Source of the DNA: Kastovskya adunca ATA6-11-RM4 | GTDB lineage: Bacteria; Cyanobacteriota; Cyanobacteriia; Cyanobacteriales; Coleofasciculaceae | Assembly: GCA_019359445.1 (NCBI GenBank) | Contig: JAHHHJ010000006.1 | Location: 62,001 to 126,000 of the forward strand | Reading direction: 5' to 3' | Length of the DNA stretch: 64,000 nt | Shown here: one piece after another, positions 59,234 to 63,507 of the stretch | Layout of the letters: every line of letters starts with the position of its first letter | How positions within the stretch are numbered: the first letter of the stretch is position 1 | Notes under the pieces: generated by a model | Databases searched by the model: none | Told to the model about the DNA's origin: nothing | The model's input: only the letters and a program-made list of their open reading frames with translations | Position numbers and translations under genes: made by a program

Positions 59234-59260
59234 GTGGGGCACGACATGCCGTATCCCTAC
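59234..59260. repeat. Diverged copy of the gtagggg palindromic repeat
   Basis: gtggggcacgacatgccgta followed by tccctac matches the palindrome at 36352-36379 with a few changes. The stop codon of the glycosyltransferase-methyltransferase gene (complement of cta, 59257-59259) lies inside it. Confidence 0.6.
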
Positions 59261-61146
59261 TCCCCATCACCTGATCCCCCTTGGTGCCATAATTTGCCCG
59301 TAGCGGCGAGATATTCTTTTTCGTTCCAGGTTTGCACGCAGGAAGGATTAGCCGGATCGGGTTGGCATAGATAAATTTCGTGCCCCGGACGATTGATAAC
59401 CCGCAAACCGCTAGAACGCAACATCGCTTCCACCCCAGCATGATTGGCAATCCACCAGTTGGTGGGGTCACCAACAAAGGAATGTTCAATAAATGCCATT
59501 TTGGGCCAACCGGGTTGAGTTAATGCTTCTCGGTCATGGATAGGGCGATCGCTTGTATCTTCATACACCTCTTCTCCCGGCAGGGTAAGGGTTTGGAAGA
59601 CTAAAAGACGCTTCACCTTTTGCGCCACGATGTCTAAACCTAACAGTGGGTAACGCAGGTGGTAAAAAACGCCCATAAACAAAATTAGGTCAAAGCTTTC
59701 CTCGGTGTGGGCTAAATCGTAGACTTGCATCTGCTTAAACTCAATTCGTTCCTCAAGCCCAAGCTGCAAGAGTGCCCAGTTTGCTTGTGCTAGATAGTGC
59801 GGATCAACATCAATCCCGGTGACGTAGGCACCACGACGGGCGAGTTCAAAACTGTAGAAACCCGCATTGCAGCCGATATCGAGGACACGCCAACCTTCGA
59901 GATTTTCTGGCAGGGAAGTAGCCAATTGCTGCCATTTGAAGGCGGGAAAATCCCCTAGGAAATGATCGGGTGCTGTCTGGGTGCCGTCAGGAAGGTGGAG
60001 GTTGTGAAACCAAGGAGCAAGATTAGCGATCGCACTTGGCAAATCTTTTGGGTGATTGGAGAAAGAGGGCTTTGGTGAACTTTTCATCGCCATTGCCGCG
60101 ATCGCATACTGCTCCAGTTCCGCTGCACGGTGGGCAGATGTATGTTCTGCTAGGACACGCTTGCGGGCGCGATCGCCAATTGCACGACGCTCCTCTTCTG
60201 GCATTTGGCGCAAATACCCTAAAACATCCGCCGGGGAATCTGCCACCAAAATTTCTTTACCAAGTTCAAAGAAGGTATCTAGCCCTTCCCAATAGTCACT
60301 GATGATCGGAGTCCCACAAGCCGCCGCTTCAAATAGTCGCACACTAGGGGAGTATCCAGCCCGAATCATGTCAGCCCGCGTGACGTTGAGCGTGAAGTGT
60401 TGAGCGTTGTAGAAGGTGCGATGTTCAGCGGGTGGTAGGTGTTCAATCCGCTCAATATTGCTCGACCATTTAATGGTACTGGGATACTGAGGGCCAGCAA
60501 CAACAAAACGACCTTCTCCCCATTGGTGTGCGGGTTCCATCAGCAAGTGATTCAGGGTTGGTTGGCGATCGTCGCTGTAAGTGCCCATATAACCAAGATT
60601 CCAGAGGCGATCGCCCTCTTCTGGAGCATACAAAGTTGGGTCAACAGAACAATACAACGCCCTTGCCATCGGTGAGCCATACTGCTGCTCAAGCCGATGT
60701 AACGTTGCACCGCCAGTAAAGGAGAGATAGAGGTTGTAGCAGGAAATCAATGGGGGTGATAGGTATTCAGTATCGCCCCGTTCCAACTTTGCCAAAGTTA
60801 CTGGCGTGTCGATATCGTAGAACGCTGTGACGCCGCGTGCAGTCGCTGTTACCCATTCCCCCACCGCCACCCCTTCCGGCACATAGGAGCCAACTATGAC
60901 TAAATCTGCCTCGCGCACATCTTGAGTAAAACTGTCTTTTAGCTCCTCAAGATTGGAATATAGGTTAGTGCGCCCGTAGGGAGGATGAGGAAGGTCGCGG
61001 TTGGTAGCGTACCAAGGCACATCCCGTTCAAGAAACAGGACATCATGACCTCTGGCTACCAGTTCGCGCACCAGTCCCCGGTAGGTAGTGGCGTGTCCGT
61101 TGCCCCAAGAGGAAGTGATGGATAATCCTAGGATGATGATTTTCAT
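59257..61146 (-). CDS. Bifunctional CgeB-type glycosyltransferase / SAM methyltransferase fusion
   Basis: A 629-residue two-domain protein. Residues 1-345 are a CgeB/DUF3880-type glycosyltransferase (KIIILGLSITSSWGNGHATT, DLVIVGSYVPEGVAVG, GYSPSVRLFEAAACGTPIIS). Residues ~365-620 are a SAM methyltransferase of the TIGR04290 type (APWFHNLHLPDGTQTAPDHF, RVLDIGCNAGFYSFELARRG, ESFDLILFMGVFYHLRYPLL, NWWIANHAGVEAMLRSSGL). Relatives usually occur as two neighbouring genes, so the fusion suggests the two steps act on one glycan substrate. ATG 61146 begins the glycosyltransferase; a TTG six codons earlier is rejected. The product is unknown. Confidence 0.88.
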   Translation of the reverse strand: MKIIILGLSITSSWGNGHATTYRGLVRELVARGHDVLFLERDVPWYATNRDLPHPPYGRTNLYSNLEELKDSFTQDVREADLVIVGSYVPEGVAVGEWVTATARGVTAFYDIDTPVTLAKLERGDTEYLSPPLISCYNLYLSFTGGATLHRLEQQYGSPMARALYCSVDPTLYAPEEGDRLWNLGYMGTYSDDRQPTLNHLLMEPAHQWGEGRFVVAGPQYPSTIKWSSNIERIEHLPPAEHRTFYNAQHFTLNVTRADMIRAGYSPSVRLFEAAACGTPIISDYWEGLDTFFELGKEILVADSPADVLGYLRQMPEEERRAIGDRARKRVLAEHTSAHRAAELEQYAIAAMAMKSSPKPSFSNHPKDLPSAIANLAPWFHNLHLPDGTQTAPDHFLGDFPAFKWQQLATSLPENLEGWRVLDIGCNAGFYSFELARRGAYVTGIDVDPHYLAQANWALLQLGLEERIEFKQMQVYDLAHTEESFDLILFMGVFYHLRYPLLGLDIVAQKVKRLLVFQTLTLPGEEVYEDTSDRPIHDREALTQPGWPKMAFIEHSFVGDPTNWWIANHAGVEAMLRSSGLRVINRPGHEIYLCQPDPANPSCVQTWNEKEYLAATGKLWHQGGSGDGE

Positions 61147-61500: not shown

Positions 61501-62541
61501 ATGTTCAAAGACAGTCAGGACATTTTAGCGATATTAAAGCCTCGCAGGATTCCTCAGATAGTTGCTTTATTTATAAAAGTTCTCTGGATATATGTTTTCT
61601 TGATAATTATCCAAAATTTATTCAATCCTGAATTAACAAGCTTTATGCTTTTTTCAAGTTTTTTCGGCGCTGTGTTTTATTCTTTTATTTTTTGGGTAAT
61701 TCTCAATACTATAGATACTTCATTACAGATAAGAAGTAATGGCATTCTTATGCGAGGGTTATTTTGGAAAACTTATCTTCCTTGGGATTCTGTTAAAGAA
61801 ATCAAACTAATCAATGGCAGGAATGAAAGACGATCTGCTGAAATTTACGCTAAACATCGTAAGTTTGGCTTTAACAAAAAAGTTTCCTTTGACAGTTCGT
61901 TGCACAGGAATTTTCGTCATGCTACTTACTATTTACTCTATCTAGCTGAACAATATAAAATCCCAGTAAAAACTGGCAGGTGGTCGCTTCCCCTCAGTGA
62001 GTGGAAAGCCTGGGCAAGCGTTGAATCTCCGGAACGATTAACCAAAATTGGAAAGCGACAGGCGGAACTCCTTCAGGAGCAAGAATGGGCAAATATTATG
62101 TCCCCAGAACAACTAGCTGAACTTGAAAAGCAGCAGGAACTCCTTCAGGAGGAAGAAGGGGCGAATACTATATCCCCAGAGCAATTAGCTGAAATTGAAA
62201 AGCTAAAGAAACTCCTTCAAGAGCAAGAATGGGCGAATATTATGTCCTCAGAACAACTAGCTGAAATTGAAAAGCGACAGCAACAGCTTCAGGAGAAAGA
62301 AGCAATGCTTGCCCAACTGAGCGAGCAATTGTCAAGCCAAGTACCGGGACTAAAGCCGCTAGAAGTAGGCAGTTTAGATATGGAAACTGTGGTTAAACAA
62401 TGTAATGAGGCTCTAGAGAAAGCAAAGAATGTGGAGACTGAAACACTTGCTAGCCAATGCCTTGAGACTCTCTTTGAGGTAGAACAGATTAAAGGAGAGA
62501 TTTTGCAGTTGCAACTCTCACAATACTTAAACTCTTTGTAA
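61501..62541 (+). CDS. Membrane PH-like protein with four ~24-residue repeats
   Basis: A 346-residue protein. Two membrane helices (VALFIKVLWIYVFLIIIQNL, residues 20-40, and SSFFGAVFYSFIFWVILNT, 52-70) are followed by a PH-like segment (ILMRGLFWKTYLPWDSVKEI). Residues ~170-266 are four copies of a 24-residue unit, EWANIMSPEQLAELEKQQEL plus LQEE, forming a charged coiled coil. A helical C-terminal region (GSLDMETVVKQCNEALEKAK) completes it. The gene is AT-rich and lies beside an accessory region. It could tether a complex to the membrane; no family is recognised. Confidence 0.75.
   Translation: MFKDSQDILAILKPRRIPQIVALFIKVLWIYVFLIIIQNLFNPELTSFMLFSSFFGAVFYSFIFWVILNTIDTSLQIRSNGILMRGLFWKTYLPWDSVKEIKLINGRNERRSAEIYAKHRKFGFNKKVSFDSSLHRNFRHATYYLLYLAEQYKIPVKTGRWSLPLSEWKAWASVESPERLTKIGKRQAELLQEQEWANIMSPEQLAELEKQQELLQEEEGANTISPEQLAEIEKLKKLLQEQEWANIMSSEQLAEIEKRQQQLQEKEAMLAQLSEQLSSQVPGLKPLEVGSLDMETVVKQCNEALEKAKNVETETLASQCLETLFEVEQIKGEILQLQLSQYLNSL
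62008..62298 (+). repeat. Tandem 72-bp coding repeat
   Basis: Three close copies of 72 bp (residues 195-218, 219-242, 243-266) preceded by a diverged copy (~170-194). High identity at DNA level points to recent expansion. Confidence 0.8.
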
Positions 62542-62555
62542 AAGTATTAACACTC

Positions 62556-63074
62556 TCATAAGTAAAGTGAAGCAGTGGCATCGTTAACTTTCACCATGAG
62601 TGTCATCGGATCAATAGGTGAAGCAGTAAAACCACACTTCTTATAAAACTGCTTCGCATCTTCCGAGATGGCATGTACGAGAATTGCCCGTATCCCTGCA
62701 ATCTCAGCAGCTTGCAGAGTGCGAAGAATTGCATCTCGCAGCAGAGCACGCCCGATACCTTTACCTTGCCAGTGGCGATCAACCGCCAGTCGTCCAATAA
62801 TCATAACTGGGATCGGATCGGGCATATTACGGCGAACTCGACCTGTTGCAGCAGTTTGTGCCACTGCTCCATTGGCAAGACAGTAGTAAGCGACGACTAT
62901 TTCACCAACGCAGAGAACATAAGTGCGTGAAGCTCCTTCTAACTCATTTTTCAGAGCACGGCGCTTCAGCCAGTCATCTAGCTGACTGTTACCTGAGTCA
63001 AAGCTTTCACTTCGATGTGACGAATTCAGTTTTTCAGGCGGACATAGCTTGTCTTGATCTCGATCTAATCCCAC
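62556..63074 (-). CDS. GNAT N-acetyltransferase, toxin of a DUF1778/GNAT pair
   Basis: A 172-residue GNAT enzyme of the TacT/AtaT toxin type. FDSGNSQLDDWLKRRA is the usual toxin N-terminus, and IGRLAVDRHWQGKGIGRALL is motif A (Q-x-x-G-x-G) for acetyl-CoA. FYKKCGF holds the conserved Tyr. Relatives acetylate aminoacyl-tRNA and stop translation. It starts at a GTG (63074) overlapping the antitoxin end by 10 bp, so the two are translated together. All catalytic elements are present, so it looks active. Confidence 0.9.
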   Translation of the reverse strand: MGLDRDQDKLCPPEKLNSSHRSESFDSGNSQLDDWLKRRALKNELEGASRTYVLCVGEIVVAYYCLANGAVAQTAATGRVRRNMPDPIPVMIIGRLAVDRHWQGKGIGRALLRDAILRTLQAAEIAGIRAILVHAISEDAKQFYKKCGFTASPIDPMTLMVKVNDATASLYL

Positions 63075-63361
63075 GGAGACTTGGTTGTCAGCAACGTGTG
63101 TAGTTTCTCATCTCGCGTAGGTGGTGCATCCAGCAACGCCACAAATTGCTTAAATTTAACTTCATCTAACCCAAAGAAACTTCGATCTAGAAGAACGTCT
63201 TGAGCCTTCTGATAAGCTGACTCAAGCATAAACTCTGAGCGGCTCTTGCCCTGCACTTCAGCCGCATGATCAATTAGATCGCGTTGATTTTTCTTAGCTC
63301 GGATGTTGATTGTGACATCGCGGGTTTGGCTAGCTGACCCTTCACCGGCTGAGGCAGACAT
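63065..63361 (-). CDS. DUF1778 antitoxin
   Basis: A 98-residue RHH-type antitoxin: VTINIRAKKNQRDLIDHAAE is the ribbon-helix-helix and KSRSEFMLESAYQKAQDVLL the following helix. The C-terminal FGLDEVKFKQFVALLDAPPT wraps the toxin. The frame extends to 63433, but ATG 63361 has a GAGGGGG site and gives the usual length. Together with the GNAT gene it forms a type II module; such antitoxins repress their own promoter. Confidence 0.9.
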   Translation of the reverse strand: MSASAGEGSASQTRDVTINIRAKKNQRDLIDHAAEVQGKSRSEFMLESAYQKAQDVLLDRSFFGLDEVKFKQFVALLDAPPTRDEKLHTLLTTKSPWD

Positions 63362-63507
63362 AACGCTTACCCCCTCTAAGAGGGACAAAGATACTACATC
63401 TTTACCTACAGCAGTATTAAAGCTACTGACCATAGGAGACTCTTCTAATTTAAAAGCTTTGTATACACAATGTCAACACATTTCTGTGATTTTTTGACCG
63501 TGGCTAC

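Follow-up and report, generated by a model that had tools for sequence, protein, structure and literature searches.

A CgeB-type glycosyltransferase and a TIGR04290 methyltransferase joined in one gene of Kastovskya adunca, and the gene cassette around it

Introduction

The locus described here lies in the 5.09 Mb genome of Kastovskya adunca, within a stretch of 64,000 nucleotides (bases 62001–126000 of contig C26) that was analysed as a whole and is called the window below. On its minus strand a glycosyltransferase and a methyltransferase appear to be encoded together, which raises the question of whether the two are joined in a genuine gene and, if so, what glycan they would share. The original prediction named both domain types, expected them as neighbouring genes in other bacteria and proposed a common substrate, perhaps a capped exopolysaccharide or glycolipid. 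No study of TIGR04290, of TIGR04295 or of the cassette that contains them was found in the open-licence papers searched, and the available part of the Ramlibacter tataouinensis genome paper holds nothing on the cluster (PMC3164672).

Results

The fused gene and its junction

The gene is a single uninterrupted frame of 629 amino acids, running from an ATG at 61146 to a stop codon at 59257–59259. An alternative TTG start 18 bases upstream of this ATG would give 635 amino acids, and the plus-strand reading of 59257–61146 in the same frame contains many stops. The parts of the gene are as follows.

59257–61146, minus strand: fused gene, CgeB-type glycosyltransferase then TIGR04290 methyltransferase (open frame; Pfam and NCBIfam matches)
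60091–61146, minus strand: glycosyltransferase part (GT3), residues 1–352 (PF13524; identity to separate GT3 genes; AlphaFold model)
60031–60090, minus strand: linker, approximately residues 353–372, with an in-frame ATG AAA at residue 354 (junction frames; alignment limits)
59260–60030, minus strand: methyltransferase part, residues 373–629 (TIGR04290; invariant columns; AlphaFold model)

Pfam model PF13524 (Glyco_trans_1_2) matched residues 200–345 with 139.9 bits, against a gathering cut-off of 25, and TIGR04290 (meth_Rta_06860) matched residues 370–594 with 351.9 bits against a cut-off of 300, with nearly the whole model covered. The remaining methyltransferase models that matched the fusion were general families or fell below their own cut-offs. 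The label "CgeB type" is one that we take to fit the PF13524 half, none of the matched models bearing the name CgeB. With one frame free of stops and both family matches above cut-off, the fusion is plain in the sequence, and both domain types are those originally named.

The linker measures approximately 20 residues, as the glycosyltransferase alignments of relatives stop at about residues 352–359 and the methyltransferase alignments start at about 372–375. Up to the conserved AAELEQY (EQY) motif next to the junction the glycosyltransferase reads in its expected frame, and the methyltransferase continues in that frame. The in-frame ATG at residue 354 would be a natural start for a separate methyltransferase, and one frame over a TGA overlaps this ATG, so that a one-base insertion or deletion, whether natural or introduced in assembly, suffices to explain the fusion. 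The linker is also flanked by a short repeated motif, from which no inference was drawn because it is common here, with 26 occurrences in the 20 kb of locus L008.

60026–60033 and 60098–60105: two GCGATCGC octamers flanking the linker (positions in L008, converted)

The glycosyltransferase half

The glycosyltransferase half is the third CgeB-type enzyme of the cassette and shares 59–78% identity with complete separate GT3 genes outside Pseudomonadota and 54–64% with those within Pseudomonadota. Its AlphaFold model has a mean pLDDT of 94.7, and the best PDB matches of the model were GT4-type enzymes, which have the GT-B fold, with TM scores by query of 0.45–0.78 among the matches listed. The model thus predicts a GT-B fold close to the GT4 enzymes MshA, BshA and HepE; the protein differs from other PF13524 glycosyltransferases by its C-terminal methyltransferase. 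When the PDB was searched by sequence with the whole fusion, none of the 42 matches had its best stretch in the glycosyltransferase half.

In an alignment of 20 GT3 sequences the fusion keeps all 100 columns that are invariant in the others. The copy of the same-order genome G062, omitted when the columns were chosen, has lost six of the 100, and the same test applied to other rows gave 0 to 11 losses for the glycosyltransferase half and 0 to 17 for the methyltransferase half. Non-synonymous differences of the glycosyltransferase half amount to 15–19% relative to L055, L074 and L077 (same-order relatives and Mojavia). Synonymous sites are saturated for both halves, which fits constraint and gives no ratio, so no dN/dS value is reported. 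In a short-search tree the glycosyltransferase half groups with G062 with a support of 92.

The methyltransferase half

In an alignment of 21 sequences the methyltransferase half keeps all 59 columns that are invariant in the others, among them the SAM motif LDIGCNAG at residues 422–429, which is followed by the acidic residues D446 and D448. The SAM-binding residues whose absence would have counted against a methyltransferase are therefore present, and in its score and invariant columns the half is like the other TIGR04290 methyltransferases. Its non-synonymous differences from L075 (G174) are 17%. The AlphaFold model has a mean pLDDT of 80.1, with lower values before the last third and in the tail. 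CmoB, the tRNA U34 carboxymethyltransferase, was the closest solved protein both by fold and by sequence; EvdMO1, AtmM and RebM stood further down by fold. These are sugar-methylating enzymes, and PDB entry 6uv6 is named a D-glucose O-methyltransferase. Class I methyltransferase folds are so common, however, that likeness of fold says little about the acceptor. The short-search tree leaves the placement of this half without resolution, and the trees therefore leave shared descent of the two halves undecided.

Occurrence of the fusion and spacing of the two genes in relatives

None of 64 other methyltransferase loci, taken one per genome or record (species may recur among the sets) and including one, in G822, with a stop inside the TIGR04290 match, has a glycosyltransferase match within the stop-to-stop frame of the methyltransferase. 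In all 64 loci the family thus occurs without a fused glycosyltransferase, and here as the C-terminal half of a fusion. The fusion is so far a single case; the related loci came from a scan by exact 8-residue patterns, which could miss more distant fusions. Methyltransferase open frames of 400–791 amino acids in some genomes looked fusion-like in the tables and were rejected, as those frames held no glycosyltransferase match. The viral contigs searched contained no related locus. In a plasmid collection 149 records matched the fusion protein, 110 of them over at least 80% at one place. Among the plasmid matches listed, features were named in seven, all of which give the glycosyltransferase and the TIGR04290 methyltransferase as separate genes, and six of the seven (rhizobia, Agrobacterium, Paracoccus) also name a gene of the UDP-glucuronic acid decarboxylase family.

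TIGR04290 exceeded its cut-off in one of 386 genomes of the window's phylum, namely the window's own genome; G174, from the same order, has a TIGR04290 match of 339.2 bits and lies outside this count. The corresponding figures were 14 of 341 genomes in the order of a Hymenobacter genome, 7 of 321 in the class of a Lysobacterales genome and 28 of 297 in the order of a Rhodoplanes genome. Matches at E 0.001 in 308 of the 386 genomes might suggest a frequent family, but 12 of 14 controls matched as well, and this reading was dropped.

Fourteen related loci hold both genes. In seven, GT3 and the methyltransferase are separated by 15–132 nt, which agrees with the expectation that they are neighbours elsewhere; the other seven have a longer gap, intervening genes, or the two genes apart. 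In Sinorhizobium medicae and S. meliloti GT3 is followed by a gene with the annotation UDP-glucuronic acid decarboxylase or SDR, and this gene by the methyltransferase. G174 has both genes approximately 86 kb apart; in Mojavia GT3 is present, whereas TIGR04290 gave no match at E 1e-30. From this spread of arrangements it follows that the two genes are not inseparable.

Seven rhizobial loci (L142:6855, L143:12983, L146:5835, L147:5027, L148:5651, L149:13618 and L150:14242) carry a second, more distant GT3-like gene, with 42–47% identity to the Pontibacter GT3 and located between a histidine phosphatase and the methyltransferase, which forms a second tie of this glycosyltransferase type to TIGR04290.

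The cassette in other phyla and in the window genome

To the right of the window, on the strand of the fusion, lie the CgeB-type GT2, the likewise CgeB-type GT1, GT4, a TIGR04295 radical-SAM gene and epimerase-type genes (L008, L009). Mojavia (Nostocaceae, Cyanobacteriota) is among the organisms with relatives of the GT3 and radical-SAM proteins of the window genome. The B12-binding radical-SAM protein (TIGR04295, B12_rSAM_oligo; L009:4723-6009) scored 740.5 bits against a cut-off of 400. The window genome thus contains, in order, epimerases, GT4, three CgeB-type glycosyltransferases and TIGR04290, like the TIGR04295 cassettes of other genomes, with the radical-SAM gene a few genes away from the fusion; its version differs in being interrupted and in having two truncated epimerase genes.

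Sixteen related loci were found in Bacteroidota, Abditibacteriota, Planctomycetota, Thermodesulfobacteriota, Pseudomonadota and Cyanobacteriota. The fullest row given by gene clustering, from Bacteroidota, reads SDR, epimerase C2a, the long protein C2b whose C-terminus is an epimerase, zinc dehydrogenase, Gfo/Idh/MocA dehydrogenase, GT4, GT1, GT2, GT3, TIGR04290 methyltransferase and NUDIX. The annotated cluster is also present on plasmids of S. medicae, S. meliloti and Xanthomonas sacchari. In S. medicae an inositol-3-phosphate synthase, a histidine phosphatase and Gfo/Idh/MocA and zinc dehydrogenases are found in the vicinity; Pfam backs the synthase and the phosphatase, and matches the decarboxylase-like protein to general epimerase families only. 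The synthase scored 550.5 bits against the 638 of the mycothiol INO1 model, and the best NCBIfam matches of both rhizobial dehydrogenases were of inositol type and far below cut-off. By this conserved gene context, the proposal that the glycosyltransferase and the methyltransferase belong to a shared pathway is well supported.

A bacterial UDP-apiose route (Xanthomonas pisi, Geminicoccus) was considered and dropped, since its authors, in the available part of their paper, find no conserved operon around that gene (PMC5607165).

State of the cassette in the window genome

The fusion lies approximately 3.5 kb away from the remaining cassette genes, and the genes in between include the following.

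61501–63433: genes parting the fusion from the cassette (ORFs, Pfam)
61501–62541, plus strand: gene without a Pfam match (ORF, Pfam)
62556–63074, minus strand: GNAT acetyltransferase (Pfam)
63065–63433, minus strand: TacA-like antitoxin (Pfam)

A BrnT-like toxin gene (L008:16114-16428) also lies between GT2 and the fusion, besides the TacA/GNAT pair (62556–63433). Given this separation, the fused gene needs its own promoter or read-through; a simple promoter scan found no site on its strand, a scan that finds fewer sites than in shuffled sequences and is not informative. The gene at 61501–62541 holds a 93-nt stretch three times in 72-nt steps (62066–62302), and a 109-nt repeat occurs in two copies 90% alike and 684 nt apart, one of them in the BrnT gene.

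Beside the radical-SAM gene, C2a is a remnant covering residues 111–242 of 371, and no close intact copy was found elsewhere in the window genome. C2b starts at residue 171 of 690, its first 170 residues missing, and abuts the C2a piece out of frame (L009:6328-8405). In-frame low-complexity stretches occur in GT4 (L009:3542-4717) and in C2b (L009:6328-7980), and the latter, judged by eye, has no counterpart in the Mojavia protein.

Six further genomes of the order (G062, G115, G039, G011, G081 and G026; loci L077:894-1934, L076:10311-10775, L012, L014, L015 and L016) carry GT3 copies that are partial or broken, and none of the six, when searched with the fusion, showed a methyltransferase match at E 1e-30. 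Among 195 genomes in the order, TIGR04295 was found in only two, G000 and G174. The cassette may be in the course of being lost in this order, and the damage and interruption lower confidence that the whole pathway still runs in the window genome.

Alternation of the radical-SAM gene and the dehydrogenases

In 54 genomes, comprising 53 with TIGR04290 above its cut-off and Mojavia, TIGR04295 was found in 18 and the cassette Gfo/Idh/MocA dehydrogenase in 33, with no genome having both and three (G516, G1068 and G1183) having neither. About 11 shared genomes would be expected by chance, a figure that ignores relatedness. The dehydrogenase was counted as a relative of the Gfo/Idh/MocA protein of the Pontibacter cassette at E <= 1e-40. 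For some genomes the scoring covered only 39 Gfo candidates; these genomes include G516, whose locus L054 has a zinc dehydrogenase and a 33% Gfo match 10 kb away, and none of the 18 TIGR04295 genomes.

The positions of the genes were located in 39 loci searched with the cassette proteins, which form 37 clusters, since L008 and L009 come from a single genome and so do L074 and L075; 20 of these loci were chosen for a type already known and add nothing to the count. In 14 loci the radical-SAM gene lies between an epimerase gene and GT4, and neither dehydrogenase was matched in the stretch. Another 23 have the Gfo gene, 22 of them also with a visible zinc dehydrogenase, and no radical-SAM match. 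In 11 of these 23 the dehydrogenase pair stands between C2b and GT4, the place of the radical-SAM gene elsewhere, and in most rhizobial loci of the Gfo type it stands elsewhere in the cluster. The exclusion is seen at L009:4723-6009 and in loci L142–L161, L050–L064, L124 and L125. Mapped on a GT2 tree of 33 of these loci, the distribution of the two types requires seven changes, at least four of them forced by well supported branches, which indicates repeated exchange of the types. The radical-SAM enzyme may catalyse the same net step as the dehydrogenases, or there may be two product chemotypes.

Discussion

The reading favoured here, with slightly better than even confidence, is a two-domain enzyme in which the last glycosyltransferase gene of the cassette has become joined to the methyltransferase gene and both parts act on an oligosaccharide. 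Judged from its sequence, the fused enzyme is probably functional. The GT3 domain, with its predicted GT-B fold, would attach the final sugar of a series, perhaps a pentose, after which the methyltransferase domain would O-methylate that glycan with SAM, and the join would keep both steps at 1:1 and close together. We infer the activity of both halves, the order of the steps, the presence of a pentose, methylation on an oxygen of a sugar or of a cyclitol, and the cyclitol-linked product. The pentose is proposed because a decarboxylase-like gene lies between GT3 and the methyltransferase in Sinorhizobium, and the cyclitol because inositol-phosphate synthase and inositol-dehydrogenase-like genes occur in rhizobial cassettes, both proposals being drawn from the cassettes of organisms other than that of the window. 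Together they suggest a cyclitol-linked, O-methylated oligosaccharide as the product.

Two alternatives concern the gene itself. The two halves might be separate genes overlapping by a few bases that a one-base sequencing or assembly error has joined, which we consider unlikely. The TGA that overlaps the ATG one frame over is the usual layout of coupled operon genes, and the 64 other loci gave no second fusion; on the other side, the contig is 245 kb long, completeness of the assembly is put at 99.99% and contamination at 0%, and the C-terminal end of the glycosyltransferase keeps its expected frame through the conserved EQY, with the methyltransferase in that frame too. It is less probable again that the fusion is real but stands in a decaying cassette and no longer serves its original pathway. 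The truncated epimerase genes, the toxin-antitoxin-type genes inside the cluster and the partial or broken GT3 copies in the six other genomes all point towards decay, whereas the two halves of the fusion have kept every invariant residue where the G062 copy of GT3 has not, the radical-SAM gene retains its high score, and GT1, GT2 and GT4 are near full length.

Other substrates may also be considered for the enzyme. Transfer of a carboxymethyl group from carboxy-SAM, as by CmoB, is suggested by the rank of CmoB as best match by sequence and by fold, but the CmoB models score far under their cut-offs (67.6 against 209 bits and 66.7 against 275), and the neighbouring genes are sugar genes. H381 aligns at position 91 of CmoB, where Lys91 is presumably a contact of carboxy-SAM, and this histidine is invariant in 16 aligned TIGR04290 proteins. 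With a histidine at the lysine position, use of carboxy-SAM is highly improbable, and the likeness to CmoB probably does not extend to this cofactor. Extension and capping of an exopolysaccharide or glycolipid by O-methylation, as originally proposed, is compatible with a functional fusion and overlaps with the favoured reading, and was judged improbable to about the same degree as decay of the cassette. Such a role would fit the weak sequence similarity (E 2e-7 to 3e-7) of the methyltransferase half to PDB chains of WbdD, a protein that caps O antigen. Among the annotated genes that recur in the cassette none is an exporter, a flippase, a polymerase or a chain-length regulator; the rhizobial cassettes repeatedly hold genes for inositol-phosphate synthase and for inositol-dehydrogenase-like enzymes instead. 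As far as the flanking genes were annotated, a capped exopolysaccharide is thus not supported and not the best reading, and the evidence speaks neither for nor against a glycolipid.

Returning to the two-domain enzyme acting on an oligosaccharide, a fusion of operon neighbours is an ordinary kind of event, and it is the pathway around it that is modestly surprising. That two enzymes are fused in nature speaks for their working on one route. This one ties TIGR04290, for which no known function was found, to one particular glycosyltransferase in a row of glycosyltransferases, and offers one protein from which both acceptor and product could be worked out. A broader and more tentative reading, which we hold to be possible rather than likely, is that the fusion completes a horizontally spread and so far undescribed pathway to a cyclitol-linked, pentose-containing, O-methylated oligosaccharide. 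In the version present here TIGR04295 alone would carry out the step that takes both dehydrogenases in other lineages, for example the inversion of a ring hydroxyl of an inositol or a sugar. The alternation offers a concrete guess for this unknown cobalamin radical-SAM family: if the reading is true, TIGR04295 would be a radical-SAM epimerase or its functional equivalent, and not a C-methylase.
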